From NCBI RefSeq assembly GCF_005796205.1, contig NZ_VAHN01000005.1:1-64000 (forward strand): a stretch of DNA of 64,000 nt. The letters run 5' to 3'. Both the position numbers and the translations under genes were made by a program. The notes beneath the pieces are model-generated. The model was not told the origin of the DNA, did not search any database, and worked only from the letters and a program-made list of their open reading frames with translations. Shown here in pieces: positions 43,479 to 60,229 of the stretch. Position 1 is the stretch's first letter; each line of letters opens with the position of its first letter. This DNA is from Pseudarthrobacter sp. NamE2. GTDB taxonomy: Bacteria > Actinomycetota > Actinomycetes > Actinomycetales > Micrococcaceae.

Positions 43479-43616
43479 GTGAGCAAGCGGACTTTTCAGC
43501 CGAATAACCGCCGTCGGGCCAAGAAGCACGGCTTCCGCCTTCGTATGCGTACCCGTGCCGGCCGCGCCATCCTGGCTGCCCGCCGTGGCAAGGGCCGCAC
43601 CGAACTGTCGGCTTAA
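43479..43616 (+). CDS. rpmH: 50S ribosomal protein L34
   Basis: 45 aa, below the usual ORF cutoff, GTG start after CTGGAGTAACTAAC. Sequence begins [20 protein letters not shown] and ends in [12 protein letters not shown], the canonical L34. Very basic; part of the large ribosomal subunit. First gene of the rpmH-rnpA-yidD-yidC-jag-rsmG unit, divergent from dnaA. Confidence 0.98.
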
Positions 43617-43656
43617 TTACCTGACTTATCGGTAGACATCCCATTGCGAGTTTAAG

Positions 43657-44067
43657 GTGCTGGCCGCCCGCAACCGCTTGAGGACTGCAGCCGATTTTTC
43701 AACAACCGTACGTTCCGGTGTCCGCAATGGGCGCCGGAACGTAGTGTTATATGCGGCAGCTATAGCTGCCGACGAACCCAGCCGGATCGGGTTCATCGTT
43801 TCCAAGAGTGTAGGGAACGCTGTGGTCAGGAACCTCGTTAAGCGGAGACTGAGGGAAGCAGGTGCTGCATCGCTGCGCGAACACGGCACCGGTTTCGCCA
43901 TAGTAGTCCGGGCGCTTCCCGCGTCCGCTTCAGCCAGTTGGGACCAGCTTCTGAACGACTACAACGCTGCACTGGAATCGACGCTCGCCCGGCTGGCCGG
44001 CCGCCTGTCAAAGGCAGCCGCGAACCGTTCGGCCGGTACAACACAGGAGGGGACACCGCGTGCGTAA
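43657..44067 (+). CDS. rnpA: Ribonuclease P protein component
   Basis: 136 aa, GTG start. The conserved basic helix KSVGNAVVRNLVKRRLREAG (RNR motif) and N-terminal MLAARNRLRTAADFSTTVRS identify RnpA; FIVSKSVG and FAIVVRALPAS are also family features. It binds the RNase P RNA to mature tRNA 5' ends. The C-terminal ~20 residues are an Ala-rich extension. Overlaps yidD by 8 nt in a different frame. Confidence 0.96.
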   Translation: MLAARNRLRTAADFSTTVRSGVRNGRRNVVLYAAAIAADEPSRIGFIVSKSVGNAVVRNLVKRRLREAGAASLREHGTGFAIVVRALPASASASWDQLLNDYNAALESTLARLAGRLSKAAANRSAGTTQEGTPRA

Positions 44068-44452
44068 CGCCACCGCCGTCGTCGCCCGTCTCCGTCCCGT
44101 TGCCGCCGCCCTCGGAATGTTCCTGTGGAACCTGCCCCGGAACGTCCTTATCCTGTTGCTGAAGGCTTACCGCAAGGTGGTATCGCCCCTGTACGGGCAG
44201 GTCTGCCGATTTTTCCCTTCATGCTCGGCCTATGCCCTTGAAGCGGTCACTGTCCATGGCGCCGTCAAGGGGAGCTGGCTCGCGGTCCGGCGCCTCGGCC
44301 GCTGCCATCCATGGAACGCCGGCGGCGTGGACCACGTCCCCGCCGGAAACCGGGAATGGCCGGAGAGCCAGACCCCCACGATTGTTGTGCTGAACAACCC
44401 GGACAAGTACCTGGCTGCTCGGACTAATGGAGAAGGCCGCAGCGCGGCCTGA
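44060..44452 (+). CDS. yidD: Membrane protein insertion efficiency factor YidD
   Basis: 130 aa, GTG start. Amphipathic core LLLKAYRKVVSPLYGQVCRF followed by FPSCSAYALEAVTVHGAVKG and RRLGRCHPWNAGGVDHVP, the full YidD signature with its three Cys. It assists YidC-mediated insertion at the membrane. Between rnpA (overlap) and yidC (15 nt gap). The N- and C-terminal extensions are longer than in E. coli YidD. Confidence 0.96.
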   Translation: MRNATAVVARLRPVAAALGMFLWNLPRNVLILLLKAYRKVVSPLYGQVCRFFPSCSAYALEAVTVHGAVKGSWLAVRRLGRCHPWNAGGVDHVPAGNREWPESQTPTIVVLNNPDKYLAARTNGEGRSAA

Positions 44453-44467
44453 CGAATAGGGATAAGT

Positions 44468-45436
44468 ATGGACTTCTTCGAAACAATCATGTTTCCGTTC
44501 AAATGGCTTGTGTCCATCATCATGGTGGGCTTCCATGAGGGCCTGACCGCCATCGGCATGCCCGATGCGTCGGGCTGGACCTGGACGCTGTCCATCATCG
44601 GGCTGGTGCTGGTGATCCGCGCCGCCCTTATTCCTGTGTTCGTCAAGCAGATTAAGGCACAGCGCGGCATGCAGCTCCTGCAGCCGGACCTGAAGAAGCT
44701 GCAGGACAAGTACAAGGGCAAGACCGACCAGCTGTCCCGCCAGGCCATGGCCCAGGAACAGATGGCCATGTATAAGAAGCACGGCACCAACCCGTTCTCC
44801 GCCTGCCTGCCCATGCTGATCCAGATGCCGTTCTTCTTCGCGCTGTTCACGGTGCTTTCGGGCATCTCGGGGGCCCGTGACAAGGGCGAGGGCATCGGTG
44901 CGATGAGCCATGACCAGGTTGTCCAGTTCGACGATTCCACCATTTTCGGGGCACCGCTGAACGCCACACTGCTGCACGGCGGCGGCGGTGAGAACCAGGT
45001 AATGGTCGCAGTGCTTTCGATCCTGATGATCCTTGCCATGACTGCCTCGCAATTCATCACGCAGAAGCAGATTATGGCCAAGAACATGTCCGAAGAGGCC
45101 ATGGCCAGCCCGTTCATGCGGCAGCAGAAGATGATGCTCTACATCCTCCCCATCGTGTTCGGTGTGGGCGGCATCAACTTCCCCATCGGCGTCCTGATCT
45201 ACTGGACCACCACCAACCTTTGGACCATGGGCCAGCAGTTCTTCGTTATCCGCCGCATGCCGACGCCGGGATCGCCTGCTGCGAAGGCCCTCGCCGAACG
45301 CCGTGCCGCCAAGGGCCTTCCCGCCCTGCCGATCCTGAGCGGCAAGAAGGAAGCTGAGGAGGCTGCGGCAACCGTCCCCGCCGAACCCAAGGGCCAGCGT
45401 GTCCAGCCACAGCGCAAGAACAGGAAGAAGAAGTAA
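44468..45436 (+). CDS. yidC: Membrane protein insertase YidC/Oxa1
   Basis: 322 aa, actinobacterial type without the large periplasmic domain. First membrane segments at ~10-60 with the groove arginine in LVLVIRAALIPVFVKQIKAQ. A cytoplasmic coiled coil follows (LQPDLKKLQDKYKGKTDQLS). Then come NPFSACLPMLIQMPFFFALF and C-terminal helices ending with GVLIYWTTTNLWTMGQQFFV and a basic tail. Inserts membrane proteins alone or with SecYEG. The stop shares a base with the jag start. Confidence 0.97.
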   Translation: MDFFETIMFPFKWLVSIIMVGFHEGLTAIGMPDASGWTWTLSIIGLVLVIRAALIPVFVKQIKAQRGMQLLQPDLKKLQDKYKGKTDQLSRQAMAQEQMAMYKKHGTNPFSACLPMLIQMPFFFALFTVLSGISGARDKGEGIGAMSHDQVVQFDDSTIFGAPLNATLLHGGGGENQVMVAVLSILMILAMTASQFITQKQIMAKNMSEEAMASPFMRQQKMMLYILPIVFGVGGINFPIGVLIYWTTTNLWTMGQQFFVIRRMPTPGSPAAKALAERRAAKGLPALPILSGKKEAEEAAATVPAEPKGQRVQPQRKNRKKK

Positions 45437-46002
45437 TGTCAGCCGAGAGCACCGAACACGCACTTTCCGAGGACATGATGGACGACCAGGACGAGTCCGT
45501 GAACGATGAGGCTTCCTCTCCGCGGGTGTCAGCTGTCAGCCGGCTCGAAGAAGAAGGTGATATCGCGGCCGACTATCTGGAGGAACTGCTGGATATCGCC
45601 GACATCGACGGCGACATCGACATCGAGGTACGCAACGGCCGCACCTACATTTCGATCGTGGCTGACGAGGAAGCCGATGGGCTGGAGAGCCTGGTCGGCG
45701 AGGACGGCGAAGTCCTCGAGGCCCTGCAGGAACTGACGCGGCTCGCCGTGTTGTCCGCCACGGAAAACCGGTCACGGCTGGTGCTGGATATTAACGGATA
45801 CCGGCAGGAGCGTACCGGCCACCTGCAGAAGATTGCAGAGGACGCCGCGGCAACCGTGAAGGAAACCGGGAAGCCCGTTGCGCTGGAACCGATGAGCGCC
45901 TATGAGCGGAAGATTGTCCATGACGCCGTTGCCGACCTGGGGCTCGTCAGTGAGTCCGAAGGCGAAGGCAACGGGCGCCATATTGTCGTATCCGCCGACT
46001 AG
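45436..46002 (+). CDS. jag: Jag/KhpB-type RNA-binding protein (KH-R3H)
   Basis: 188 aa. An acidic N-terminal ~35 residues replace the Jag-N domain of Firmicutes. The KH-like domain (~35-105) includes YLEELLDIADIDGDIDIEVR and GEVLEALQELTRLAVLSATE. The R3H domain (~120-188) has YRQERTGHLQKIAEDAA and MSAYERKIVHDAV with the Arg-x3-His. Binds RNA and is linked to cell elongation in studied relatives. TAATG overlap with yidC shows translational coupling. Confidence 0.93.
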   Translation: MSAESTEHALSEDMMDDQDESVNDEASSPRVSAVSRLEEEGDIAADYLEELLDIADIDGDIDIEVRNGRTYISIVADEEADGLESLVGEDGEVLEALQELTRLAVLSATENRSRLVLDINGYRQERTGHLQKIAEDAAATVKETGKPVALEPMSAYERKIVHDAVADLGLVSESEGEGNGRHIVVSAD

Positions 46003-46024
46003 AGAATTGCTGGCCCCGCTAACA

Positions 46025-46675
46025 ATGGTTGACATCACGGCAGCTGAACTCCGGGCGGCTGAGAAGATTTTTGGTGACAGGCTGGACCTGGCCAAACGGT
46101 ACGTTGAACACCTCGCCACGTCGGGAACGGAACGGGGCCTGATCGGGCCGCGCGAGATTCCCCGGCTGTGGAGCAGGCATGTCCTAAACTGTGCCGTCAT
46201 CGAAAGCGAGATTCCGGAGGGCAGCCATGTTGCCGACGTCGGCAGCGGTGCAGGCCTGCCCGGTCTTTGCCTTGCGATAGCACGCCCGGATCTTGAGCTC
46301 ACCCTCATCGAGCCCTTGGAGCGCAGGGTGATCTGGCTCCAGGAGGTCGTGGACGATCTCGGGCTGGACAATGTGACGGTGATGCGGAGCCGCGCGGAGG
46401 CAGCGGTGGGCCAGGTAAATGCCGATGTGGTGACTGCCCGCGCGGTATCCGCGCTGAGCAACCTGGCCGGGCTGACTATTCCGCTGCTTGCGGGGCACGG
46501 TGAGGTGGTGGCGATCAAGGGCCAAAGTGCGGCTGAGGAGATCGAAAAGGCCGCCAAGGCCATCCGTAGACTCGGTGGTGTGGAAACTTCCGTACTCACT
46601 GTGGGTGATGGCCTCCTTGAGGAGCCCACAACGGTAGTTCGCATCGTCGTTAACAAGTCCCAAAAGAACCCCTAG
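46025..46675 (+). CDS. rsmG: 16S rRNA (guanine-527-N7)-methyltransferase RsmG
   Basis: 216 aa. SAM-binding motif VADVGSGAGLPGLCLAIARP near residue 70, post-I acidic LTLIEPLERRVIWLQEVVDD, and VVTARAVSALSNLAGL. N-terminal part IFGDRLDLAKRYVEHLATSG and GPREIPRLWSRHVLNC is typical. It methylates G527; loss gives low-level streptomycin resistance in several bacteria. The start at 46025 lies 23 nt after the jag stop; ribosome site weak. Confidence 0.94.
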   Translation: MVDITAAELRAAEKIFGDRLDLAKRYVEHLATSGTERGLIGPREIPRLWSRHVLNCAVIESEIPEGSHVADVGSGAGLPGLCLAIARPDLELTLIEPLERRVIWLQEVVDDLGLDNVTVMRSRAEAAVGQVNADVVTARAVSALSNLAGLTIPLLAGHGEVVAIKGQSAAEEIEKAAKAIRRLGGVETSVLTVGDGLLEEPTTVVRIVVNKSQKNP

Positions 46676-46764
46676 TCCTGGCCCGGCAGCCGATGTCTGC
46701 CGGGTCCAGCAGTTAGGCTAGTCAACGGCAGCAAAATTGGCTGAACGAGAGTGAGTGTGCCCCA

Positions 46765-47829
46765 GTGACCAGTAGTGAAGCCTCCGCACAACGGATACCG
46801 CCGTTCGTGTCATTGGGGTCAGCACGTTCTGTCGCTGGTCCGGGCATGGCCCCCGGCAGAGGTGGCAATCACCCCCGATCGGTTGCCAGCGCCAACGCTG
46901 CGGTCGTTTCACGTGAAACAACCCCTGCGGGGCGGTCCAACATTATTGATGCGATAGACGATTCGAGTCCCATCGCCCGGGAGTTGGCCCATGAAACCAA
47001 GCGCAGGGAGCGCCTTATGGGACGCAAGTTGCCCCGGCCGGAGAAGACCCGCATCTTCACGGTTTCCAACCAGAAGGGTGGCGTGGGAAAGACCACCACC
47101 ACCGTGAACATCGCTGCAGCCCTGGCCGCAGCGGGCCTCAACGTCCTGGTCATCGACATCGACCCGCAGGGCAATGCTTCCACCGCCTTGGGCATTGAGC
47201 ACCATGCCGATGTGGACAGCATCTACGATGTTCTCATCAACGATGTTGCACTGGCAGATGTAGTAGCCCAGTGCCCCGACATCGAGAAGCTTATTTGCGC
47301 CCCGGCCACCATCCACCTTGCAGGTGCCGAAATTGAACTCGTTTCGCTGGTTGCCCGGGAGCAAAGGCTCCGTCGCGCCATCGACGTGTACGCCAAGACA
47401 CGGGTAAAGAACGGCGAGGAGCGGCTCGACTATATCTTCATCGACTGCCCGCCGAGTCTGGGCCTGCTGACAGTTAATGCCTTCTGTGCAGCGAACGAGG
47501 TGCTCATTCCTATCCAGTGTGAGTACTACGCTCTCGAAGGCCTCAGCCAGCTGCTGAAGAACATCGAGATGATCCAGAAACACCTCAATGATGAACTGGT
47601 CGTTTCCACGATCCTATTGACGATGTACGACGGCCGCACAAATCTTGCTGCGCAGGTGGCTGCAGAGGTCCGAACTCACTTTCCCGAGCAGGTACTGTCT
47701 GCTGTCGTCCCGCGTTCGGTCCGCATCTCCGAGGCACCAAGCTACCAGCAGACTGTTATGACCTATGACCCATCCTCCAGTGGAGCTCTGTCCTATCTGG
47801 AAGCCGCTGCCGAAATAGCAGAACGCTAG
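46765..47829 (+). CDS. parA: Chromosome partitioning ATPase ParA
   Basis: 354 aa, GTG start. Deviant Walker A in NQKGGVGKTTTTVNIAAALA near residue 98, A' motif VIDIDPQGNAS, Walker B FIDCPPSLGLLTVNAF and the DNA-contacting C-terminal PRSVRISEAPSYQQTVMTYD. An extra ~90-residue N-terminal region, likely disordered, precedes the ATPase. A perfect parS site lies inside this extension (46906-46919). ParA gradients position ParB-parS complexes. Followed by parB after 63 nt. Confidence 0.97.
   Translation: MTSSEASAQRIPPFVSLGSARSVAGPGMAPGRGGNHPRSVASANAAVVSRETTPAGRSNIIDAIDDSSPIARELAHETKRRERLMGRKLPRPEKTRIFTVSNQKGGVGKTTTTVNIAAALAAAGLNVLVIDIDPQGNASTALGIEHHADVDSIYDVLINDVALADVVAQCPDIEKLICAPATIHLAGAEIELVSLVAREQRLRRAIDVYAKTRVKNGEERLDYIFIDCPPSLGLLTVNAFCAANEVLIPIQCEYYALEGLSQLLKNIEMIQKHLNDELVVSTILLTMYDGRTNLAAQVAAEVRTHFPEQVLSAVVPRSVRISEAPSYQQTVMTYDPSSSGALSYLEAAAEIAER
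46906..46919. other. parS: parS site inside parA
   Basis: GTTTCACGTGAAAC, the perfect parS core palindrome. It is read in frame as V-S-R-E-T within the N-terminal extension of ParA. Confidence 0.95.
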
Positions 47830-47892
47830 AATCTTCAAACTGCAACGACCGGCGCCGGAAGTGCCTGGTTCTACCACTGGAGGGATTTATCC

Positions 47893-49170
47893 ATGAGCGA
47901 GAAGCGACGGGGCCTAGGCCGCGGTCTTGGCGCGCTGATTCCAAGTTCCGCCGCAACCAGCGGGCAGGCGAATGCGGCTGCCGCATCCAGGCCTGTCGAT
48001 CTCTTCTTTCCCGAGGGCCGCAAGAAGTCCGATGATTCGAATGGCAAGGTGCCCGGCTCGGTCGAGTCTGTCGCCGAAAAGCTGATCGCGCCCCGGACGC
48101 CCGGGTCAGCCGGCAAACGTGCTGGAACGAAAGAGCCGGATTCAGAACGTTCCGAAGGTACTGAATCTGCTTCCGCCAGGAAGAGTGCATCTGCTGCCTC
48201 ACGCTCGGCCTCAAAGAGTGGAAAGCCAGAGGAGTCCGTGGAGGAACCGGTAACCGTTGCGCCGGGCTCTTCCGTTGACCAGGCCGGGGATGTGGCAAGG
48301 GAGTCTGTTGAGGCGTTTGTTGGAACAGACACCGGAATGGAACTGGTAGAAGTGCCTGGAGCGCGCTTTGCTGAAATTCCGGTTGCTGACATTCATCCCA
48401 ATCGCAAGCAGCCGCGTACCGTCTTCGATGAAGACGACATGGCGGAGCTTGTCCATTCTGTCCGCGAAATCGGCGTCCTGCAGCCAATTGTTGTCCGTAA
48501 GTCAACTGAAGCCGGTAGTGAGCCCTACGAGCTTGTCATGGGCGAGCGGCGCTGGCGTGCTGTTCAAGCGGCGGGACTCGAAACGATCCCTGCGATAATC
48601 CGGGACACCACCGACGACGATCTCCTCCGCGATGCATTGTTGGAAAACCTGCACCGCAGCCAGCTCAACCCGCTGGAAGAGGCGGCTGCCTACCAGCAGC
48701 TGTTGGAGGATTTTGGTACCACGCACGAGCAACTGGCGGACCGCATTGGAAGATCCCGCCCGCAGGTCTCAAACACGCTGCGCCTGCTGAAGCTTCCGCC
48801 GCTGGTACAGCGTCGTGTTGCTGCCGGGGTTCTTTCCGCCGGCCACGCCCGTGCTCTGCTGTCCTTGCCCGATCCTGCCGCCATGGAGCGCATTGCACAG
48901 AAGATCGTGGCGGAGGGCATGTCGGTGCGTGCAACCGAAGAAGCAGTAGCCCTGTACCAGGACCCCGCCAAGCCTGCCAAGAACAACATTCCTCGACCCG
49001 GTGCCCGGCATGAGCGACTCGATTACCTGGCGTCATCGTTGTCGGACCGTTTGGATACGAACGTAAAAATCTCACTTGGCGTCCGTAAGGGCAAAGTCAG
49101 TATCGAATTCGCCAGCGTAGAGGACTTGAACCGCATTATGGACGTTTTGGCTCCAGGGTCCACCAATTAG
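47893..49170 (+). CDS. parB: Chromosome partitioning CTPase/DNA clamp ParB
   Basis: 425 aa. Residues 1-15 ([19 protein letters not shown]) hold the ParA-stimulating arginine motif. A low-complexity ~130-residue spacer follows, longer than in most ParBs. The core has [20 protein letters not shown], the CTP-binding [14 protein letters not shown] and [20 protein letters not shown], then the HTH ([20 protein letters not shown]). The C-terminal dimerisation domain ends near [10 protein letters not shown]. It loads at parS and slides. Third-position G+C is lower than in most genes of the window. Confidence 0.97.
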
Positions 49171-49182
49171 TTCTCTCTTGAT

Positions 49183-49215
49183 AAAAGGCCCGATTCTTAT
49201 GGATCGGGCCTTTTT
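49183..49215 (+). terminator. Terminator of parAB
   Basis: AAAAGGCCCGAT, loop TCTTATGG, ATCGGGCCTTTTT: a stem followed by a T5 run, 12 nt after the parB stop. A classical intrinsic terminator. Confidence 0.92.
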
Positions 49216-49495
49216 GGTCTTCGCCAGCACAGGACGTTGAACCGAGATGGCGCTTCATCACCGCGGAATCATCAGGGGAAAGTGGGAGGCAGTGGGCCCA
49301 GTGTCATGCCCCTGATACGCCACGGTTTGGTTAGTCGGCGGTAGCTGCACCTAACCGCTAGCAGCTCTCGGCGAGTTGCTTAGCTTGCCGCAAAAGCGAA
49401 CTTCCGGTTTCCATCTGCGCTCGTTGATCGGCCACCGGGAATGAACTTGCCAAGTTCGAACAGCGGACGCATCCCCTACTGGTCCTGCAAACAAC

Positions 49496-49509
49496 GTTTC
49501 ACGTGAAAC
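49496..49509. other. parS: parS site
   Basis: Perfect GTTTCACGTGAAAC, flanked to ACGTTTCACGTGAAACGT, giving an 18-bp palindrome. Confidence 0.95.
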
Positions 49510-49936
49510 GTACCTGCCTAACGACTGCCGGGGCGACGCCAGTCCTCTTTGCGCGTCAGGAGTTGAGCGTTCGTGAACTACTCGTCGTCGCGGATTTCAA
49601 GTGCTGGACCGGGGTGTAGACGCCCGGATCGAAGCGTACGCGGTACAAAGCAGCGCAGCCTGTGCCGGGTTGGGAGTATGCAGTATCCCGCTCCTGCGAT
49701 ACCGGGCGGCTTGAATTAGGGGGTGACGCTTGGCATGGGCAGTGCGCGTAAGTCTTCACCAACCATAATGCCGATTCTGCAGCTGCCTCAACGTTTGACC
49801 GTCGGCGGCGGCACAAAAATGGCGGGGGTGCTATTACTGCATTGCCGTCTTACTGCGCCGGCCCGTGTTTGGACTAGAAACGCTTACAACTCAGGTCAGT
49901 ACCGTGACTTCGACAACGCCTTGACTATAGCGGCCA

Positions 49937-49950
49937 GTTTCACGTGAAAC
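49937..49950. other. parS: parS site
   Basis: Perfect GTTTCACGTGAAAC core, 441 bp from the previous site. Confidence 0.95.
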
Positions 49951-51075
49951 AGTGGCGGCTATGAGAATCTTCCGTGCAGCAAGCGAAGACAATAACATAC
50001 CCAGGCAACTGCCGAGTGCGGTTAGAAGGTCGCTCGCTTCATGGTTCAAACGCCGGATAGTGGTGATACGCGCAGTTCATGGCATTAGGTTTCAATTCAT
50101 CTCGATATGCGATGGACTGCGTGGGGGTAGCGCGAATCACGTGAGACTTTTGCAATCCACGCTGGTACGTATGTTCAAGAGCTCCGAGGGTAGAGCGCAG
50201 ATTGCCAAGAAGCAACAAATCCGTACAGTGTGGGGCACGTTATGGCGCACAGTGCTCGCTGCCACTTACGAGCTCCTCCTTGGCATGTGCTGGAGGCACC
50301 CGGCGAGATGCCAAAAATCAGAATCGGACCGGACTTCTTGGCCGACGCGCTTGAACCCCATACCTGAGGTACACCGGCTTCCCTGGCAAGCGCAGACAGC
50401 ATGGTACGTGCTTCTGTGACACAGTGCTTCTTCTGGAGATAGTGGCAGAAGCATCATTCTCGTGCTGATGAAGCTGTAGCAGCGAACTGATGATCGGCCC
50501 AGGCTGTCATACCCCAACGTCGCTGCTGAGAGGAGAGGGGGCCACGGAAAAGGTGCAGCGAGTCTTCTTCGCTAACCTGTCGAGTGCGCGGACATACAGG
50601 AGATAGGCGCCACGAGCACGCGAGCCTGATGTCATCAGCGAACCCCGTATCGCGAGAACGTATCCATGCATCACCTCGTACTGCCGGGGTCGTGTGGTGC
50701 GTGTGTTAGCTTCCCTGAAACAACATGGAGTGCAGAGTCAAGGACTCCTACACTTCGTTCCTAGTTCCTTTCATCTTTTCTATGTCGTATCGCGCTCGGT
50801 TAGTTGGGCTTGGCTGCATCCGTGAATGGGTATAGCCAAACTGGTATACGAAGGCAGGAGTGCTTGCGTGAGCCTACGCGCACTTCCGCCAGTGCGTCGA
50901 GGGGCTCGGATTACCGGCAAGATACCTGTGGACTATTCAGTGGAAAACGCTGTGGATAACATTGGGGATGAAAGAGTGGAACGCGCCCGCAGTCCATTTC
51001 ATTGCTGTTAGGACGTAGTGTTCAACCAACATCTTCCGGGCAGTTCGTAGCGCCGGCAGTGAGAACGGTGCTGAC

Positions 51076-51089
51076 GTTTCACGTGAAAC
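51076..51089. other. parS: parS site
   Basis: Perfect GTTTCACGTGAAAC core in an ACG...CGT context. DnaA boxes occur 117 bp to the left and 228 bp to the right. Confidence 0.95.
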
Positions 51090-52209
51090 GTGCGGCCCGA
51101 ATGGCTTTCACTGATCGGATTTCGCGCGAGCTGACGAGTAGTAAACCTAAACGGGCCGTTTTCGCGGCCTACGGCGCACGATGCTTGCGGCACCTATCTC
51201 TCGGTATGGCGTCTTGAATGGAGCGACCGCCCAAGATTGGAATGCAACTACGCGAGGCACGCAGGTCATGGGCTTCGCGCTTTGGCCAACGGAAGGTTCC
51301 ACCAATTCCGGGACGATGTGGATAACTATGTGCATATCGAGGACTAGGGACTGTGGATATCCTGTGTATAAACCCTCCGACAGTTTGTACACGACCAGAG
51401 CATCGTGGAGCGAATCATTCGCAAACCGCCGGCACGTGCACCCCCACTTTCGGGCAAGACACATGCCCGAGGCACCCGAGGTACAGAACGGACGCGCGTA
51501 CTCGGAAGCACGCAAAGTCGGCAGCTGATCTCCGCGTGAAAAGTACCTTTATGCTCATGCCGTCAGGCGTACCTGCAGAGAAGGTCTGCACCACACGACG
51601 ATTGTTCTGTCCACGGCGTCCTGGAATATGTGTCCGTGTCTGCGAGCTGCAGGTCTGGTCCCCTAGACATGGGTCCCGAACCTCACGCGCATGTTCTTAC
51701 CTACTGATGCCAAAGCACCATCAGTCCCTACACCTGAACCCAGGAACGGTCAGGCGGTAGCTGGGACGGCATCCCGCCTTAATCATGTGGCCAATGCTCA
51801 GGCCGAGTCAAGCGTAGGGTAGAGGTTCAAGCTGGAGCCTAACTGCCCGCGGCGACGATCGGACGTCGTGCAACCGACCTCCGTCCGGACCGTTCCCCGA
51901 TCACTTGCTTGAGGTCTGACTTCCCGTCTTTACATGTCATACGCAACGGCCCTTTCGCGCCTTGTAGTTCTCTAACGTTCGCGCCGCTGTGCAACGGCGA
52001 CCAACTGTACCTTCGTCCGCGAAAGCTGCGCTGTGCCCATGTCCCCAGTCATCGCCGTACCCGCATCAGGGGCGTACTGGCAACAGGGTCCCGGCTGGTT
52101 CTTTATTGTTGTACAGTCCTGTCTTAGAACATAAGTGATGAGGTAGCGTCACGCTCCTCGGCGTCTGCTGCTGTCGAGTCAGGGAATCTCCCTCGCAGTC
52201 CAAGAGTCT

Positions 52210-52223
52210 GTTCCACGTGAAAC
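52210..52223. other. parS: Near-perfect parS site
   Basis: TGTTCCACGTGAAACA differs from the 16-bp consensus at one base in the left arm. A parS half-site (GTTTCACGAG) follows 1 nt later at 52225. Likely still bound by ParB, perhaps more weakly. Confidence 0.75.
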
Positions 52224-53140
52224 AGTTTCACGAGCGGTAAGCAGCCGATGCAGTAGATGACTATGACCCATCTGCCCACGACTCACCGGAATCGGGCTTC
52301 TCGGCACAGCTACCCGGCTCGGAAGCTGGGAGGCATATACGGTGGTGAACTCGGCCGTGCGGTGTCATGCCGCGGAACCGCAGATGGGCCCAAAGGCTAG
52401 TGGCGGTTTGCAGCGGTATCTCCAGGGCGATCGCTCCTCTGAGACACTGGGTTGGTGAACATCAGGTTTGTCTTGTGTCGGGTCTTGGTGCAACCTTTTG
52501 TGCAGGCGCCCGCCTTGACCGGAAGTTAGTGGCGTAGCGCAGCCTTCGGGATGCATTGAGGAGAACCACCCGGTGCAATGAGCCGCTGCGCTCCGAGAGG
52601 ATATTCAATCATCGTTTTGGTGTGCTTCGACTATCCGCTCTACTTGCGCGGCAAGGATGTCGGCCCCTTGCGGCAACCGTGCGCTCAAGTACGTCACTAC
52701 TGAAGGTACAGATCAAGGTGCCGGCCATGCAGATCCAAGCAGGCACTGGGGTGGAGTGACGTTCTGCCCGCCTCCTGATACCGACAGGCGACAACCGGTC
52801 CCTTTTGGGATACTGCAGTCGCAACGCCAGCACCAGGCGGACGAGTGAGATTGTATAAGTGCAACATCTTGTTGTGGGTATTTAGGCAAAATGTGCGTGT
52901 TTCGTGAGTTCCTCTCCCACTCCTGGCTGGATTCGCCAATCGGAACCGATGCTGCTTAGCGTGGACTTACCTTTTGTGTTGTCACCCATTTTGGGCAGAA
53001 GTAGCTGATTGCCCTTCTACGGCGCACGACGCAGTGACTCAGATAAGAGGAACTGTTCACTCTGCTAGTTTTGATACCGGCCTGTGCGAAGTTCGGGAGG
53101 TCATTCCTCTTGACGGCACAATCCGCTGTTTTACCTTCTT

Positions 53141-53154
53141 GTTTCACGTGAAAC
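53141..53154. other. parS: parS site
   Basis: Perfect core within the 20-bp palindrome CTTGTTTCACGTGAAACAAG. It lies 137 bp before the transposase remnant. Confidence 0.95.
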
Positions 53155-53290
53155 AAGCGCCCTTTCGGGAGACTCCTAGGTGTACTGTCCCGGCACGCTG
53201 GTGACACGGGGTGGGAATTGACGTAATAAAGAGGACTTCCGGGTGTTCTGTGGAGCTTGTCGAGAGCAACACAGATACCAGGAGGTCCTC

Positions 53291-54293
53291 GTGTCCCACT
53301 TTAACGCGATCCTTGCCCCTGCCGGGCGCTTGAAGCCCGCTCAATGCGTGGTGAATCATCATTGGCCGTTGCGCCGCGCGGCTGAACGGTTCAGCGTCTC
53401 TGCGCCTACGGCAGCCCGCTGGGCCAAGCGTTACGTCGAGCACGGAGCTGCTGGCATGCAGGACCGGCCCAGCCGGCCGATGAACTGCCCACACCGCAGT
53501 GCAGTACGGACAGAACATCGGGTAGTTGGACTGCGAACCTCCAAGCGTTGGGGACCGGCAAGAATCGCTTACCACCTGCCTTGAACATCTCCACGGTCCA
53601 CCGGATCCTCCACCGCTACCACTGCCCACCGCTGCGCTTCACGGACCCTGCAACCGGGGCGAGGATCAGGCAGGAACGCGCCCGCCGCTATGAGTACGCC
53701 TGGCCCGGTGAAATGATCCACGTGGACGTGACAAAAAACTAGGCAGGATCCCGGACGGCGGAGGCCACCGTAGCCTGGGAAGAGTCGTCGGTGATGCGAA
53801 CAAACGAGCCCGGAATCCTGCTGAAGGCGCCCGGAGGAACCGGGGGCTGCTTCGGGGTTTCACGTTCATTCACCACGCCGTCGATGACCACTCCCGCTAC
53901 GTCTATTCCGAAATCTTGCCTGACGAGACCAAAGAAACTGCCGCAGCCTTCATGCGCAACGCGATCGCGGCGTTCTCCGCCAAAGGGGTGAAGATCCAGC
54001 GGGTGCTCACTGATAACGGTTCCTGCTACCGGTCCAAAGCCTTCGCCCAGGTCTTGGCCGAAGCCGGGATCCGCCACAAACGCACCAGACCCTACCGGCC
54101 GCAGACGAACGGAAAAGTCGAACGCTTCAACCGCATCCTCCTGGAAGAGTGGGCCTACGCCCGGCCCTTCGCCTAAGAAATCGAACGCCAAGCCTGCTAC
54201 CAGGACTTCATCGAGCACTACAAACAGGCCAGGCCTCACACCGCACTAAAAGGTGCCTCACCCGCCAGCCGCGTCACCAACCAACCGCGCTAG
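53291..54293 (+). pseudogene. Degenerate IS481-family transposase
   Basis: The GTG at 53291 has a perfect GGAGGT site. The protein starts SHFNAILAPAGRLKPAQCVV and has the HTH RRAAERFSVSAPTAARWAKR and GMQDRPSRP typical of IS481. Frame breaks: a 1-nt loss near 53577 (stop at 53582), a second frame ending at TAG 53740 just after the first catalytic Asp (MIHVDVTKN), and a TAA at 54174. The remaining DDE parts are intact in pieces: RVLTDNGSCY (second Asp) and YRPQTNGKVERFNRIL (Glu). The normal C-terminus is recognisable up to 54293. IS ends were not located. A dead transposon within the parS region. Confidence 0.88.
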
Positions 54294-54518
54294 TACACCT
54301 TGGGGGCCGTACGAGTTGCCGGTACTCCCCGAAAAAGTCGTGTCCGGGTCCCACTTCCTGGGCCAGCTACCGCAGACGAACGAGTAGTCGACATGCTTGC
54401 TTCGTTTGCAAACTTAGTCCCGTGAGCATGATTCCTTATGACTCGCTCGGCGCCCAACCGGCCTACCGTTTCACGTGAAACAAGGCCGACGGGGCTCCTC
54501 CCCTAGCAAAGCAAGGAT
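54294..54518. other. Short intergenic stretch with parS
   Basis: About 225 bp between the transposase remnant and the trxA terminator. Apart from the parS at 54468 nothing is recognisable; part may be the right flank of the insertion sequence. Confidence 0.5.
54468..54481. other. parS: parS site
   Basis: Perfect GTTTCACGTGAAAC core, the last of the array, 108 bp from the trxA stop. Confidence 0.95.
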
Positions 54519-54556
54519 ATAAAAAAGTGGCCATCACCCGGAGGTAGTGGCCACTT
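54519..54556 (-). terminator. Terminator of trxB-trxA
   Basis: On the minus strand AAGTGGCCA...TGGCCACTT forms the stem, followed by T6 (A-run at 54521-54526). Located 33 nt after the trxA stop. Confidence 0.9.
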
Positions 54557-54588
54557 CCAGTGAGGCGTCGAGCACCTCGGACTGAACC

Positions 54589-54915
54589 CTAGGACAGAAC
54601 GTCCGAGAACTCCTTTTCAAAGAACTGCTTCGGCTTAGCGCCGATAACAGTGCTCTTCACTTCGCCGCCCTGGAAAAGGTACACCGCAGGAATGGACGTG
54701 ATCCCGTACTCCGCGGCAATGGAGGGGTTGTCGTCCACGTTAACCTTCACGACATCAACCTTCTCGCTGTATTCAACGGAGATCTCGTCGAGAATGGGCC
54801 CGAGCTTGCGGCAGGGACCGCACCACTCGGCCCAAAAGTCTACGATTACCGGCTTTTCCGAGGACAGTACGTCCGTTCCGAAGCTTGCATCGGTTACGTC
54901 TTTAGCGTTGCTCAT
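54589..54915 (-). CDS. trxA: Thioredoxin
   Basis: 108 aa, classic thioredoxin with the redox motif in VDFWAEWCGPCRKLGPILDE and the cis-Pro in YGITSIPAVYLFQGGE. Ribosome site GAGGAG. It reduces protein disulfides using electrons from the thioredoxin reductase encoded just upstream (33 nt). Cytoplasmic. Confidence 0.97.
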   Translation of the reverse strand: MSNAKDVTDASFGTDVLSSEKPVIVDFWAEWCGPCRKLGPILDEISVEYSEKVDVVKVNVDDNPSIAAEYGITSIPAVYLFQGGEVKSTVIGAKPKQFFEKEFSDVLS

Positions 54916-54948
54916 GCCTATTTCTCCTCTGATCGTGAATATTGTGGC

Positions 54949-55905
54949 TTATGCGGGAAGGTCGGCCAGGTAATGCTCGACGTCAAGGGCGGCCACACAT
55001 CCTGAACCGGAAGCAGTAATAGCCTGCCGGTACGTGGGGTCGATGACATCACCGGCGGCGAAGACACCCGGAATGCTGGTCCGGGAGCTGCGGCCTTCCA
55101 CGGCAATGGTTCCTTCGGGCGTCAGGGCAAGGACGTCCTTGACGAGGTCGGTCCGGGGATCATTGCCAATAGCCACGAAGACTCCGGTGACTGCAAGGTC
55201 AGCTTCAGTGCCGTCGAGAACGTTCTTCAACTTCAAACCGGTGACTTTGGCGCCACCAAGAACGTCCTCCACCCTGGTGTTCCACATGAAGTTGATCTTC
55301 TCGTGGGCGAGGGCCCTGTCAGCCATGATCTTGGAGGCCTTCAGGGAGTCCCGGCGGTGCACCACCGTTACGGACTTCGCGAACTTTGTGAGGAACAGGG
55401 CCTCTTCCATGGCCGAGTCCCCGCCACCGATAACGGCGATGTCCTGGTCCTTGAAGAAGAAACCATCACAGGTTGCACACCAGCTAACGCCATGTCCGGA
55501 AAGCCGCTTTTCGTTCGGCAGTCCGAGTTCCCGATACGCCGAGCCAGTGGACAGGATGACGGCCCGCGCCTGGAAGGCCTCCCCCGTACCGATGGTGACG
55601 GTTTTCACCGGGCCCTTGAGGTCCAGCGAAGTGACATCCTCGAACAGGATGTCGGTGCCGAAACGTGCAGCCTGCTTTTCGAAGTTCTCCATGAGATCCG
55701 GCCCCATAATGCCTTCGGGGAACCCGGGGTAGTTCTCCACCTCGGTGGTGTTCATCAGTTCACCGCCTGCAGTAACGGATCCGGCGATCAGCAACGGCTT
55801 AAGGTTGGCACGTGCCGTGTAGACGGCTGCCGTGTAACCTGCCGGACCGGAGCCGACAATAATGACATCACGTACTTCGGACGCGGTGTTTTCTGCGATG
55901 GTCAC
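54949..55905 (-). CDS. trxB: Thioredoxin reductase (NADPH)
   Basis: 318 aa from the GTG at 55905 (VTIAENTASEVRDVIIVGSG), the normal TrxB length; further upstream codons look non-coding. FAD site IVGSGPAGYTAAVYTARANL, redox pair in SWCATCDGFFFKDQDIAVIG, NADPH site IGGGDSAMEEALFL with HRRDSLKASKIM, and C-terminal GVFAAGDVIDPTYRQAI. It transfers electrons from NADPH to TrxA. First gene of trxB-trxA. Confidence 0.96.
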   Translation of the reverse strand: MTIAENTASEVRDVIIVGSGPAGYTAAVYTARANLKPLLIAGSVTAGGELMNTTEVENYPGFPEGIMGPDLMENFEKQAARFGTDILFEDVTSLDLKGPVKTVTIGTGEAFQARAVILSTGSAYRELGLPNEKRLSGHGVSWCATCDGFFFKDQDIAVIGGGDSAMEEALFLTKFAKSVTVVHRRDSLKASKIMADRALAHEKINFMWNTRVEDVLGGAKVTGLKLKNVLDGTEADLAVTGVFVAIGNDPRTDLVKDVLALTPEGTIAVEGRSSRTSIPGVFAAGDVIDPTYRQAITASGSGCVAALDVEHYLADLPA

Positions 55906-56130
55906 GGAACGGTGAACCTCTTCCTTACTTGACGCGCCTCCCCGTGGAGGCCGGCCACATGGCACAACTGAAACTGCACGCTGAATATTCCGGCGCCGGA
56001 CACGGGACACCGCCGGTGCGTGGCAGAAACCATCCCCGTCAAACGCTCATTCCAGATTACCGTTCCTGCAGGCACTCAAAACCGACTGAGGCGCTTTGCA
56101 GCGGATTCCAGGGCCAGCAGCGGATGTAAC

Positions 56131-56169
56131 AAAAAGGCAGCGGCCCTCCCCTAAGCCGGGAAGGGCCGC
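56131..56169 (-). terminator. Terminator of the murJ unit
   Basis: GCGGCCCT...AGGGCCGC stem with inner CCC/GGG pairs, followed on the minus strand by T5 (A-run at 56131-56135). Lies 21 nt after the stop of the pseudokinase-like gene. Confidence 0.88.
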
Positions 56170-56189
56170 CAATGCCGTGCGCTATGCCT

Positions 56190-57809
56190 TTACTGCACCT
56201 TGATCTCGGCCAGGCGGATTCCGTAACCATAGCGGGTCTTGGGTGCGGCGAGCCGAGGCAGGGAGTTTATGGAGACGATAACGTACTCCGCCTCCACGGG
56301 TTTCGCCAACGGCATGTTGAGGTCTGTGGACGTGAAGCTGTTGGTTCCCACGGCGTTTGCTCCATCCAATGACGGGCGGTCGTTCGTGTAAACGGTGATG
56401 TTGCCCCCGGAGCCACCCAGCTGCGAAAGGGTGATGGACGATACGGTCGCGGGGTTCTCCAGTTTCACAACGAGCGGCACACCCTGCGGTGCCAGGCCGC
56501 CCCAGTTTTCGCTGGCGAATTCCATGTCAGACCAGTAGCTGGCGGCGTTTCCGTCGTATGCCTTCACCAGGTCGCCATCAAAGGTTGCGGCGAAATCAAA
56601 GTTCCCCTGCCGGGAAACACTTTCGATAGCCGGCGGCACTACCGGCGGGGCAGAGGTTGGAGCCTGGGTGGGTGCGGCAGCGGTACCTTCCGGCGCGCTG
56701 GTAGTCGCCGGTGCGGGATCGTTCGCCTGCGGCTGGGCAAAGAAACTGCCGAGGTTCGTTACCGCGAACACGAGGCCCGCGATGAGCACGACGGCGAGGA
56801 GGCCGCCAACCAGCCAGCGCATGGACCGGGGCTCCCGCCCGGGTTCGTCGCGGTCGCCGTCGTAATCGCCCTGGCCCGCAAAGGAGACGCCAGCGGCTGC
56901 CGGCGCTGCGGCGCGGGCGGACATCGCCGATTTCTTCTTAACCGGCTGCGGCTGGTCGGCCGCCTCCTCGTCATAGAGGGCCTGCTGGTCGGCCTGGGCG
57001 TAGTCCTCATCCGACCACAGGGATACCTTGGGCTTTCCGGAGGCGGCCGCCGGGGTGGAAGCGTCCGAAGACGCAGCGGCGGAAACATCCCGAACGGGAT
57101 GTGCGGCAGTTGCCTCCGGATCATTGCCGCCAGCTTTCCTTGCGGCGGAGGCGGCAGCTCCGGCCCCGGCAGCACCGGCGGCTGCCGGGCCGCCAACAGC
57201 AGCAGCCCCACCGATAGCGGAGGCACCCTTCCGCTCCGGCGAGGCATCACCGGAGCGGAAGGGGGAATCAGGAGCGGAGCGCCCGGCGGAGGGTGCTGCA
57301 GCCGGGCGGGCAGGCGGCTTGGGCGGCACAACGGGAGCCGTGCGGTAAGGATCAACCTGGCTCCGGTGCGGATCGCCGTAGTTGATGTAGCCGGCGTCGA
57401 CGTTGTCTTCCTCGTCGTACGGTTCGGGCTCATAGGACCGGGGCTGGCCAAAGATTTCACTGCCCAGGGTGTCCGTGAAGAACGGCTCCACGTAGGGCGG
57501 GTTGGACGCTACTACAAGGTCCAGCAGGTCCGCCGCGGATGTGTGGTTGGTGATCAGGTACGTGGCGGCATCACTCACACCGAGGTCCAGCACCTGGACG
57601 GTGCCGGGCCGTTCCCCGGTGGCAACCTCGCGGGCGCTCTGGGCAACCTGTTCGGTGTTTTGCGGTCCGGCCACCAGGATACTGACGGGCCGGTTGAGGA
57701 CCTGGTCCACGCCGTCCAGCACCAGATCGTGGTCGTGCGAGGCCAATACGGTGGCTGTGACCTTGTAGCGGCCGCCCAGTACTGATCCGACATCGATCGG
57801 GTTGGACAC
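56190..57809 (-). CDS. Membrane protein with kinase-like N-terminus and discoidin-like external domain (MurJ partner)
   Basis: 539 aa, GTG start behind AGGAGGAGCAC. Residues ~8-105 look like a degenerate protein-kinase N-lobe: SVLGGRYKVTATVLASHDHD then VLNRPVSILVAGP, where the catalytic Lys context (usually A-V-K) is lost, and no HRD or DFG follows. A long Ala/Pro/Glu linker leads to one transmembrane helix (~340-362). The external part (~395-539) is a beta-sandwich resembling F5/8-type C domains (DFAATFDGDLVKAYDGNAAS). Mycobacterial MviN fuses these parts to MurJ; here they are separate but adjacent (164 nt). Probably the phospho-regulated MurJ partner bound by FhaA. Confidence 0.8.
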   Translation of the reverse strand: MSNPIDVGSVLGGRYKVTATVLASHDHDLVLDGVDQVLNRPVSILVAGPQNTEQVAQSAREVATGERPGTVQVLDLGVSDAATYLITNHTSAADLLDLVVASNPPYVEPFFTDTLGSEIFGQPRSYEPEPYDEEDNVDAGYINYGDPHRSQVDPYRTAPVVPPKPPARPAAAPSAGRSAPDSPFRSGDASPERKGASAIGGAAAVGGPAAAGAAGAGAAASAARKAGGNDPEATAAHPVRDVSAAASSDASTPAAASGKPKVSLWSDEDYAQADQQALYDEEAADQPQPVKKKSAMSARAAAPAAAGVSFAGQGDYDGDRDEPGREPRSMRWLVGGLLAVVLIAGLVFAVTNLGSFFAQPQANDPAPATTSAPEGTAAAPTQAPTSAPPVVPPAIESVSRQGNFDFAATFDGDLVKAYDGNAASYWSDMEFASENWGGLAPQGVPLVVKLENPATVSSITLSQLGGSGGNITVYTNDRPSLDGANAVGTNSFTSTDLNMPLAKPVEAEYVIVSINSLPRLAAPKTRYGYGIRLAEIKVQ

Positions 57810-57973
57810 GTGCTCCTCCTAGACTGTCCGGGGCCATGGCATTGGATATCCGGCCCCGTTCACGGACCTGCTGCCCAGCTTGCCCGTGAAGATAACTCCC
57901 CCTGTACCTTTTCGATCCTAGCTGATTGCGTCCGGTGCACTGCTGACAACGGCCTCGGGAAACGGCGATGCAA

Positions 57974-60229
57974 TCACTTTTTCCGCGGCTTCCGGCGCTT
58001 GAAGTAGGGGTTCTCGCCGGCCTTCCCCTGGAAGGTGCGGCGTCCTGGAAGCGGGATCTGTTCGCGGAGCAGGCCTCCCCGTGCCGTACTCGGCTGGTCC
58101 TCGCCGGGCAGGTAGCCGCCACCGGACGTTCCATCCCCGCCCGTGGACGAACCGCCGTCGTAATAATACGAACGTTTATGTGACCGCTCCGGCTCGGGGC
58201 CGGCGCGGAAGGACACCGCATCAAACTCCCCGGAGATCCGCGGGATGAGGCCGGTGTCCACCGAGGTGGTGGCGCGTTCGGGGCGGCGGTCACTTGCCTC
58301 GGCCGTGGCGCCTTCCACGGAAGGCGTCCCCTCAGGGGCGGACGACGGCGGGGTCCCCCCTGCCGCTGCAGGCGCAGCGGGGCCGCCGCGGCCCAGGCGG
58401 CCAAGCAGCGGTCCGATCAGGTCACGGAGTTCGGATACCCGGAACAGCTTGAGCAGCAGGAAGTACGCCACCAGCATGACCGGACCCACCACAATCACCG
58501 TTACCAGTGCGGTTACCCGGTCACGCCAGGCGAAGCCGTCCGGGCTGTAGCTGCCCATGAGCCACAGGGCACCCGCACCGGCGATGGCGGAGCCGAGCGC
58601 GGCGTACCCCATGCGGATGTACGAGCTGGCGATCCGGGGCCCGTCGAGGTGTCCCAGGATGCGGCGCAGGAACCAGGCGCTGATGACCACGGACAGGATA
58701 TTGCCCACCATATAAAGGACCGCGATGGCGTAAATGATCTGGTTGACCGGCAGGAACTGGATGGCGAAGGCGCCCGCCACGTAGACCACGGCCAGCAGCA
58801 ACTGGATGTAGAACGGCGTCCGGGCGTCCTCGTTGGCGTAAAACACCCGGGACATCATGAAGTTCGCGCTCATGAACGGTGTGCTGAGGGCAAGGATGGT
58901 GAGGGTCTGGGCCAGCATCACGCCGTCGTTCCGCAGGCCGCCCGAGAAGAACATCCCCAGCGGCCCGGCCAGCGCAAACAAGGCCAGGGCACCGAAAACC
59001 GTGGCCACCGCCATGGTGCGCAGCCCGTGCGACAGGGCATCCCGCAGCTCTGCCCGGTTGCCTTCCTGGGATGCCCGGGTCATGCGGTTGAACAGCACCG
59101 TGGCCAGGGAAAGGGCGATGATGGAGTGCGGCAGGAGGTACAGCTGGCTGGCCACCTCCAGCACCGCGTTGCCGGGCAGCATGTTGGCGGCGGGGTCGCC
59201 TGTTTCCTGCAGCCTCAGGCGTTCGGCGCCGGGGATGGTGGCGATGCGCATGACGTACAGGAACGCGAGCTGCCCGACGGCGGCGGTCAGCAGCGTCCAC
59301 ACGCTCAGCTTGGCTGCCTGGCCAAGTCCCACGCCCCGCCAGCCGAACCGTGGACGGAGGCCCAGGCGCAGGCGCATGACGGGAATCAGCAGGATGGCAG
59401 TCTGGGAGACGACGCCGATGGTGGAGAACCCTGCGACGAACACTGTTTGCGTATCGCCCCAGTTGTCCAGAGTGTGCGGGTTGAGTTCATTGCTGCCGAA
59501 AATCCAGATGAACATCCCCAGGCCGGCGATGGCCACCAGGTTGTTGAGGATGGGCGCCCACATGGCCGGCCCGAAGGCTCCGTTGGCGTTGAGGACCTGC
59601 GTGAGCAGGGCGTAGAGGCCGTAAAAGAAGATCTGCGGCAGGCACCAGAAGGCGAACGTCACTGCCAGGGCCTTCTGTTGCGGCGGGTAGCCCTGGGTGG
59701 TGGCGTCGATGACCAGCGGGGCCGCAAGCGTCACCAGCGCCGTAAGGCCCAGCAGGAGCAGGACAGCCAGCGTCAGCAGCCGGCTGATGTAGTCCGCTCC
59801 CCTGTCCGGGGCTTTGCTGGCTTTGATGATCTGCGGCACCAGTACGGCGTTGAATACCCCGCCCGCCACCAGGAGGAAGATCAGGTTGGGTAGGTTGTTT
59901 GCGTTGATGAAGGTGTCATTGACGGTGGAACCGAGCCCCAGGGCCGTGCCGAGCATCCAGGTTTTCCCGAAGCCCAGGAAACGCGACACAAGGGTTCCCG
60001 CCGCCATGATGGCACTGGAACGGGTTTCACTCGCACCCGACGTTGCTGGCGGCACTGCCTCTGCCGGTCCGGCAGCCTGGGCCGCGTCCGCCGGCGCCAC
60101 CTGGGGGCTGCCTGCGTCCGGGCCGCCCGGCTTGGGGCGGTCCGCGTCCGGGGGCAGGCCGTTGGGGCGGGCGTCGCCAGGGCGGCCGGCGTTGTCGGAG
60201 GGAGAGTTGGTAGCTGACATCGAGTTCAT
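57974..60229 (-). CDS. murJ: Lipid II flippase MurJ (MviN)
   Basis: 751 aa. The first ~65 residues are disordered Pro/Ala/Asp-rich; then the MATE-like core of about 14 helices starts at MAAGTLVSRFLGFGKTWMLG. Family segments VNDTFINANNLPNLIFLLVA, NGAFGPAMWAPILNNLVAIA and MSANFMMSRVFYANEDART are present. The last ~150 residues are a charged cytoplasmic tail ending in NPYFKRRKPRKK. It moves lipid II across the membrane. Located between NUDIX and the pseudokinase-like gene in the conserved cca-NUDIX-murJ-trxB order. Confidence 0.95.
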   Translation of the reverse strand: MNSMSATNSPSDNAGRPGDARPNGLPPDADRPKPGGPDAGSPQVAPADAAQAAGPAEAVPPATSGASETRSSAIMAAGTLVSRFLGFGKTWMLGTALGLGSTVNDTFINANNLPNLIFLLVAGGVFNAVLVPQIIKASKAPDRGADYISRLLTLAVLLLLGLTALVTLAAPLVIDATTQGYPPQQKALAVTFAFWCLPQIFFYGLYALLTQVLNANGAFGPAMWAPILNNLVAIAGLGMFIWIFGSNELNPHTLDNWGDTQTVFVAGFSTIGVVSQTAILLIPVMRLRLGLRPRFGWRGVGLGQAAKLSVWTLLTAAVGQLAFLYVMRIATIPGAERLRLQETGDPAANMLPGNAVLEVASQLYLLPHSIIALSLATVLFNRMTRASQEGNRAELRDALSHGLRTMAVATVFGALALFALAGPLGMFFSGGLRNDGVMLAQTLTILALSTPFMSANFMMSRVFYANEDARTPFYIQLLLAVVYVAGAFAIQFLPVNQIIYAIAVLYMVGNILSVVISAWFLRRILGHLDGPRIASSYIRMGYAALGSAIAGAGALWLMGSYSPDGFAWRDRVTALVTVIVVGPVMLVAYFLLLKLFRVSELRDLIGPLLGRLGRGGPAAPAAAGGTPPSSAPEGTPSVEGATAEASDRRPERATTSVDTGLIPRISGEFDAVSFRAGPEPERSHKRSYYYDGGSSTGGDGTSGGGYLPGEDQPSTARGGLLREQIPLPGRRTFQGKAGENPYFKRRKPRKK

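Follow-up and report, generated by a model that had tools for sequence, protein, structure and literature searches.

Why would a bacterial chromosome keep more than five kilobases without an intact gene next to parB? The question is raised by the interval between parB and trxA in Pseudarthrobacter sp. NamE2, which lies at positions 49171–54588 of the first 64,000 nucleotides of contig NZ_VAHN01000005.1 (this whole stretch is here called the window). An earlier note on this DNA had proposed that the gene-poor, parS-studded tract is a compact centromere. We analysed the tract in the window and in relatives, and we consider it probable (roughly 0.77) that the parB–trxA interval serves as a dedicated ParABS centromere, flanked by terminator-like hairpins and housing a DnaA-binding module. 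Its twin phased DnaA-box arrays beside parS are the more surprising part: DnaA boxes had been listed by the earlier note, and their arrangement in two phased, narrowly spaced arrays is new here.

The parS-bearing interval between parB and trxA

The tract, its flanking genes and the parS sites are listed below. The parS coordinates refer to the 14-mer core GTTTCACGTGAAAC and come from a motif search.

49171–54588, no strand: candidate centromere tract, non-coding and parS-bearing, between convergent parB and trxA; retained in all 96 genomes of the genus that could be read from parB to trxA
46765–47829, plus strand: parA (ParA/Soj-type ATPase), an open reading frame (ORF) with the start codon of a mechanical ORF list
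47893–49170, plus strand: parB (ParB/Spo0J family), above the cut-off of TIGR00180; contains GERRWR (motif read by eye)
54589–54915, minus strand: trxA (thioredoxin), above the cut-off of TIGR01068; the far border, converging on parB
46906–46919, no strand: parS, exact 14-mer, within the 5' end of the parA ORF
49496–49509, no strand: parS, exact
49937–49950, no strand: parS, exact
51076–51089, no strand: parS, exact, between both DnaA-box arrays
52210–52223, no strand: parS, one mismatch (GTTCCACGTGAAAC)
53141–53154, no strand: parS, exact, about 20 bp from the end of an insertion sequence
54468–54481, no strand: parS, exact

All seven parS positions of the earlier note, six in the tract and one in parA, were recovered, and with up to three mismatches to the 16-mer the window contained these seven only, compared with an average of 0.08 in 100 dinucleotide shuffles. 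No further parS was found elsewhere in the 4.04-Mb assembly (64 contigs, up to two mismatches to the 16-mer), and the number of exact 14-mer cores expected from composition is 0.005 per genome. As in chromosomal ParABS systems, several copies of GTTTCACGTGAAAC lie near oriC and parAB, with genes for ParA and ParB/Spo0J alongside the cluster, and the genome encodes ParB, DnaA and a full-length SMC. The ParA product matched NCBIfam ParA-superfamily models, every one below cut-off, and the ParB product was also matched by the Noc model, below that model's cut-off.

The anatomy of the tract can be read directly from the DNA. Its median period-3 power was 0.88 over 49171–53240, close to the 0.90 of the shuffled tract, compared with 7.14 in the remainder of the window. 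The longest run of low period-3 power in the window spans 5,151 bp (48851–54001), starting inside the end of parB, and the runner-up measures 1,501 bp. The tract has a G+C content of 57.6%, lower than the 64.5% of the window outside it. The gene poverty and the drop in G+C described by the earlier note are thus real, the tract being the longest stretch of the window without coding periodicity. Its statement that the tract holds no intact gene also stands as far as recognition goes, with the small correction that about one fifth is a decayed insertion element, leaving about 4.3 kb of the window's own filler. When 10 of the 28 listed tract ORFs of at least 60 codons were searched against Pfam, two transposase pieces matched and the other eight did not, and an Rfam scan of 40000–58000 gave no family at gathering score.

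The comparison of the parB–trxA interval among relatives, which the earlier note had suggested, was made on 101 genomes of the genus drawn evenly from a larger group; sequence surrounding parB was retrieved for 100 genomes, and the window is the remaining one (G000). parS and ParB were found in all 101. parB to trxA could be read in 96, five (G047, G014, G062, G073 and G081) being left out for an incomplete tract in the fetched DNA. The interval and its parS sites are retained in all 96, and the filler drifts. Tracts measure 3,865–13,189 bp (median 5,417) and hold 6–11 parS with at most one mismatch (median 8). Genome-wide, these 96 genomes contain 861 exact parS: 762 in the tract, 94 upstream of it and five elsewhere, the last one apiece in five genomes. 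The 94 upstream sites, 2,155–2,343 bp before the parB end, represent by position the site in parA, which is kept in most named Arthrobacter-type loci. In the window this site translates as VSRET, provided that the mechanical start at 46765 is correct, and the N-terminal extension of ParA may exist partly to carry it.

Low coding signal is general to these tracts. In every one of the 96 genomes the tract has a lower median period-3 power than the 3.3 kb that end with parB in the same genome, and in 91 the tract has no 351-bp window with a power of at least 6. The five tracts that have one are that of the window (insertion element), two with transposases (G022 and G079), one with inserted genes (G032) and one with a single such window (G085). 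A relative in which the tract is coding and parS-poor had been named as evidence against a centromere; none of the 96 was parS-poor, and inserted genes or a gene remnant with coding signal were present in four. Ten proteins of at least 240 codons from seven tracts were searched against Pfam, and four matched: a GntR-aminotransferase (G032), IS110 and rve transposases (G022) and an rve transposase (G079). The longest tract, of 13.2 kb (locus L124 of G032), has its inserted genes, including the GntR-aminotransferase regulator, on the parB side, and its DnaA module and five of its seven parS close to the trxA end.

The filler changes fast around conserved sites. Of 9,120 ordered tract pairs, only 16 can be aligned across more than 70% of their length; for the window tract, no alignment with a relative exceeded 1.5% of its length. 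In nine usable close pairs, which share species, identity was 65–86% for filler, 93–100% for parS and 96–100% for DnaA boxes, values for which global alignment flatters diverged DNA. The pair G046/G053 was left out of these ranges, the ParB of G053 being split, and gave 68%, 99% and 100%, respectively. Filler was less alike than the four-fold sites of the last 280 parB codons in seven of the nine pairs; filler change 'faster than synonymous' is therefore not uniform across pairs. In four five-species alignments, in which the site labels follow the first genome of the group, invariant columns made up 71–93% of parS, 80–94% of DnaA boxes and 9–19% of the rest, and no further invariant run of at least 13 was found outside the 60-bp ends. 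k-mer counts in 24 tracts revealed no shared element that stood out beyond parS and DnaA boxes, and when module-sized stretches of 24 tracts, one per tract, were aligned with MAFFT, little but the boxes aligned in the inspected part. Taken together, the retained interval and parS, the low period-3 power and the drifting filler lend partial support to the dedicated non-coding centromere that the earlier note had proposed.

Both ends of the window tract carry terminator-like hairpins, and one insertion element lies inside it:

49183–49214, plus strand: intrinsic-terminator-like hairpin and T run after parB (terminator scan)
54525–54556, minus strand: intrinsic-terminator-like hairpin after trxA, at the inner tract edge, with a 14-nt loop (terminator scan)
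53175–54303, plus strand: decayed IS481-type insertion sequence with 35-nt terminal inverted repeats (74% complementary) and a broken transposase frame

Across the genus, a widened scan found such hairpins at the parB end in 82 and at the trxA end in 71 of the 96 tracts, compared with 4 and 6 of 288 inner control stretches. An earlier scan, limited to loops of at most 9 nt, had given 75 and 49 of 96, and none in one control stretch per strand and tract; the scan was widened and more control stretches were added because this limit missed the window's trxA hairpin. The flanking hairpins would agree with insulation of the tract from transcription. The IS481-type element, whose transposase domains lie in broken frames (Pfam), is the sole recognisable gene remnant in the window tract. 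Over 96% of the query, it matches at 82.9% identity a region of a Paenarthrobacter plasmid that is annotated as an IS481 family transposase, and it is probably a later insertion rather than a conserved part of the tract.

We also surveyed 80 named ParB loci. The 24 Arthrobacter-type loci (the window, L005–L017, L019–L024, L029, L033, L046 and L084, where L019 is Sinomonas) have tracts of 4.1–9.1 kb with 6–12 parS. The gap is 64–332 bp with one parS in two Psychromicrobium, Kocuria polaris and three Rothia loci (L036, L043, L037, L039, L040 and L051), and 1.9–5.3 kb with two parS in three other Rothia loci (L038, L050 and L064). For distant loci, sites were placed only as upstream or downstream of the parB end, since poor tblastn coverage makes gene assignment unreliable. 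Most or all parS lie upstream in Psychromicrobium, Kocuria, Rothia, Micrococcus (L076) and nine Cellulomonas loci; the Cellulomonas gaps are often 2–3 kb, with long ORFs and without parS, and two of the nine loci lack a trxA match. Relatives that are nearer, although not of the core lineage (A. gandavensis, A. koreensis, A. agilis, Glutamicibacter and Tersicoccus), carry 4–8 parS downstream of parB.

Paired DnaA-box arrays in the tract

Besides parS, the k-mer counts in 24 tracts brought out a second motif, CTGTGGATAA, which contains the complement of the DnaA box TTATCCACA. In the window it corresponds to two arrays of TGTGGATAA (DnaA-box) repeats, 12-bp phased and in a single orientation:

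50927–50971, minus strand: DnaA-box array 1, with 9-mers at 50927, 50939, 50951 (exact) and 50963; 12-bp phase by eye
51317–51371, minus strand: DnaA-box array 2, with 9-mers at 51317 (exact), 51329, 51352 and 51363

Exact TTATCCACA occurs twice in the window tract, on the minus strand at 50951 and 51317, one in each array; these account for the 'at least two perfect DnaA boxes' of the earlier note. The other members of array 1 are degenerate, as are those of array 2 apart from 51352, and all of these were phased by eye. With at most one mismatch, boxes in one orientation number 535 across the 96 tracts and those in the opposite orientation 22; one shuffle per tract gave 34 and 21. A distance of 12 bp was the most frequent (203 pairs) among same-orientation boxes separated by 60 bp or less. 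The 88 tracts with an exact box give cgGTGGATAtcgCTGTGGATAACttTGtGGAtaa as the consensus of array 1.

An array pair was present in 95 of 96 tracts. Among pairs chosen with a gap limit of 200–420 bp, the spacing was 296–417 bp (median 345) and fell within 330–380 bp in 81 of 95; G079, which has no pair within the limits, was excluded from the array statistics. The ratio of interquartile range to median was 0.09 for the array spacing, compared with 0.21 from parB to array 1, 0.30 from array 2 to trxA, 0.63 from array 2 to the next parS and 0.58 from the first to the second parS; the coding interval from the parA site to the parB end was tighter (0.03). In 79 of 95 tracts the space between the arrays contains a parS, compared with 39.8 expected under uniform placement; this parS lies at a median of 105 bp past the last box of array 1 (range 82–138). 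In 14 further tracts it lies at most 130 bp before array 1, so that 93 of 95 tracts have parS between or shortly before the arrays compared with 50.7 expected, where the 130-bp limit was set after the positions had been seen and related genomes are not independent events.

The arrays are distinct from the boxes at dnaA. The dnaA–dnaN interval has DnaA boxes with at most one mismatch in all 25 loci that gave a result, with 12-bp tandem spacing in 19, and the window arrays lie about 8–10 kb from the boxes at dnaA. With several boxes in non-coding DNA outside dnaA–dnaN, they have the make-up of a DnaA-box cluster (DBC) outside oriC, of the datA/DBC kind. Among 30 named loci inspected by eye (29 of them outside the 24), some of which end at contig ends, array pairs were seen in L018 and L031 (both Arthrobacter) and in L019, the Sinomonas locus among the 24, which has no parS between its arrays. 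A family-wide search with one form of the array pattern found it in 36 of 149 genomes; these hits are unplaced relative to parB and were not used for counts.

Two further groups of boxes were noted. A second cluster in the window, at 22671–23742, has five exact TTATCCACA and variants within 1.1 kb; it lies on the opposite side of dnaA, about 18 kb away, around a gene that we take to be carboxymuconolactone-decarboxylase-like. In L185 (contig C45, 86000–96000), exact boxes at C45:91072 and 91373 stand 301 bp apart in the same orientation, upstream of a dnaB-like ORF that starts near C45:91703 (named by eye).

Weighing the explanations

Several observations weigh against a dedicated centromere with a DnaA module. 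No terminator hairpin was found at the parB side in 14 and at the trxA side in 25 of 96 tracts, and filler was more alike than the parB four-fold sites in two of the nine close pairs. ORFs of at least 240 codons occur in 23 of 96 tracts compared with 33 of 480 single-base shuffles, a modest excess, and Pfam gave no match for six of the ten long-ORF proteins (two from G032 and one each from G070, G061, G069 and G036). As for the module, the gap limit bounds the range of array spacing, and two of 95 tracts have parS neither between the arrays nor within 130 bp before them. In L178 (G079) a transposase gene separates the arrays, which stand 1.85 kb from each other, parS still following shortly after each array, so the exact spacing is not essential at once. 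Finally, Mycobacterium and Streptomyces are tabulated with TTGTCCACA rather than TTATCCACA as their high-affinity box (PMC4285127; the papers given by accession are cited from excerpts). We assign TTATCCACA here because the lineage's own dnaA–dnaN boxes are TTATCCACA-type.

If parS alone were selected, the non-coding tract could be functionless leftover space in which nothing is insulated. Unconserved filler is what such an ordinary spacer would show, and other bacteria manage with genic parS, for instance Caulobacter in essential or fitness-costly genes (PMC5815017). Yet an interval of 3.9–13.2 kb has been retained in 96 of 96 genomes, with inserted genes or remnants with coding signal in just four. 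Idle DNA is usually lost by bacteria, and we think a plain spacer unlikely. A stronger competitor accepts the arrays as a site of DnaA titration, similar to datA or a DBC, that merely shares the empty tract, its nearness to parS being meaningless. DnaA-regulating or DnaA-binding box clusters outside oriC are indeed known (PMC5295017, PMC4585315), and the two tracts without parS at the module, together with the Sinomonas arrays without parS between them, suit an independent site. The excess of parS between the arrays, or between and shortly before them, and its narrow offset of 82–138 bp after array 1 point the other way; on balance an independent site falls just short of even odds.

The single-orientation phased boxes, spaced as at dnaA–dnaN, could also suggest that the tract contains the replication origin or a second one. 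However, dnaA–dnaN retains its own boxes in 25 of 25 loci, and the local G+C of 54–57% at the arrays includes no strongly AT-rich stretch at 500-bp resolution; no search aimed at an unwinding element was made. The cumulative GC-skew minimum, in contigs whose base 1 is dnaA, lies off the tract at +20.8 kb (G001) and +10.6 kb (G016) from the dnaA start. The skew is weak, and as an origin locator its signal was too weak to decide. An origin here strikes us as extremely improbable. Equally hard to believe is a gene graveyard, in which decayed genes and mobile elements have piled up beside a conserved operon. The broken IS481-type element, the inserted genes in G022, G079 and G032 and the modest long-ORF excess would fit decay, but 91 of 96 tracts lack period-3 power of at least 6, the parS/DnaA skeleton is kept amid the drift, and the eight non-transposase ORFs among the 10 of 28 window-tract ORFs given to Pfam showed no gene homology. 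That a protein other than DnaA binds the TGTGGATAA arrays is very unlikely. The assignment to DnaA follows a consensus, and Mycobacterium and Streptomyces are tabulated with a different box, but the 9-mer is the same as the TTATCCACA tabulated for E. coli and B. subtilis (PMC4285127), and TTATCCACA-type boxes at 12-bp spacing are present in the lineage's own dnaA–dnaN interval.

Proposed mechanism and known systems

ParB clamps are loaded at parS and spread from there; ParA acts on ParB, which also recruits SMC. If the parB–trxA interval is a dedicated centromere, ParB dimers would load as clamps at each parS and then slide across the presumably transcription-poor DNA of the tract, and the resulting partition complex would be moved by ParA and load SMC, by analogy with the established ParABS mechanism. 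The filler, little constrained in sequence, would serve chiefly as a platform. From the sequence we infer binding by ParB and DnaA, transcriptional silence, centromere function and, far more cautiously, a coupling of replication with segregation. Published excerpts suggest that transcription or DNA-bound proteins nearby may influence ParB spreading (PMC5815017), and that multiple parS likely give robustness (PMC7083940). The central DnaA module, beside or around one parS and with arrays about 345 bp apart, would most likely bind several DnaA molecules and act as an origin-proximal DnaA-titrating or DnaA-regulating site. A more speculative possibility, which we regard as doubtful, is that the arrays and the adjacent parS form a replication–segregation switch: ParB clamp loading or sliding would release or inactivate DnaA held at the centromere, or DnaA filaments would gate ParB sliding, and segregation of the fresh centromere copy would feed back on the next initiation at oriC. 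ParA or ParB reportedly contacts DnaA in several bacteria (PMC7022226). In B. subtilis, ParA control of initiation is independent of parS near oriC according to the excerpted PMC7614844, which speaks against a simple universal coupling.

Compact parS clusters and DnaA-box clusters outside oriC are each already known. A Streptomyces cluster of the second kind is said to have been described by Smulczyk-Krawczyszyn in 2006. The nearest likeness in compactness that we cite is Myxococcus xanthus, where a cluster of 22 parS in about 3 kb holds nearly all sites; it is denser, lies about 4 kb upstream of parA and comes without mention of DnaA arrays in the excerpts (PMC3899335, PMC3778016), whereas here 6–11 parS are spread over about 5 kb downstream of parB together with a DnaA module. 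Corynebacterium glutamicum, also an actinobacterium, has parS1–10 in one region, nine of them intergenic; one parS suffices there, and ParB promotes condensin loading. Its sites, however, extend over 35 kb, 73 kb from oriC, and no single gene-free tract is described in the excerpts (PMC7083940). The five strongest parS of Caulobacter crescentus lie within 5 kb near the origin, but sit in the essential or fitness-costly genes mentioned above (PMC5815017). E. coli datA and DARS are likewise non-coding DnaA-box clusters with conserved spacing outside oriC; datA and DARS2 require IHF, and DARS2 also Fis, and in the excerpts they are not described as part of a centromere (PMC4585315, PMC5295017). 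B. subtilis has DnaA-box clusters outside the origin as well, and removal of six of them led to early initiation, although the same review elsewhere assigns them no significant role (PMC5295017). In the excerpted sources, neither the B. subtilis nor the Streptomyces clusters are described as phased twin arrays around parS. Among the matches listed in open-access full-text literature, which is partly covered, none united a parS cluster and DnaA-box arrays in one non-coding tract.

Bacterial centromeres are mostly known as parS in or between genes. In this genus a nearly gene-free candidate centromere is kept, and parS, DnaA boxes and the tract ends are all that we found conserved in it. With fast filler turnover and so few conserved contents, the spacing, number and surroundings of parS are open to study free of coding constraint. 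A DnaA module within the centromere would make the coordination of initiation and segregation directly testable through small deletions in soil bacteria that are harmless and, if the switch were real, it would be a centromere-borne element that couples the two processes in cis.

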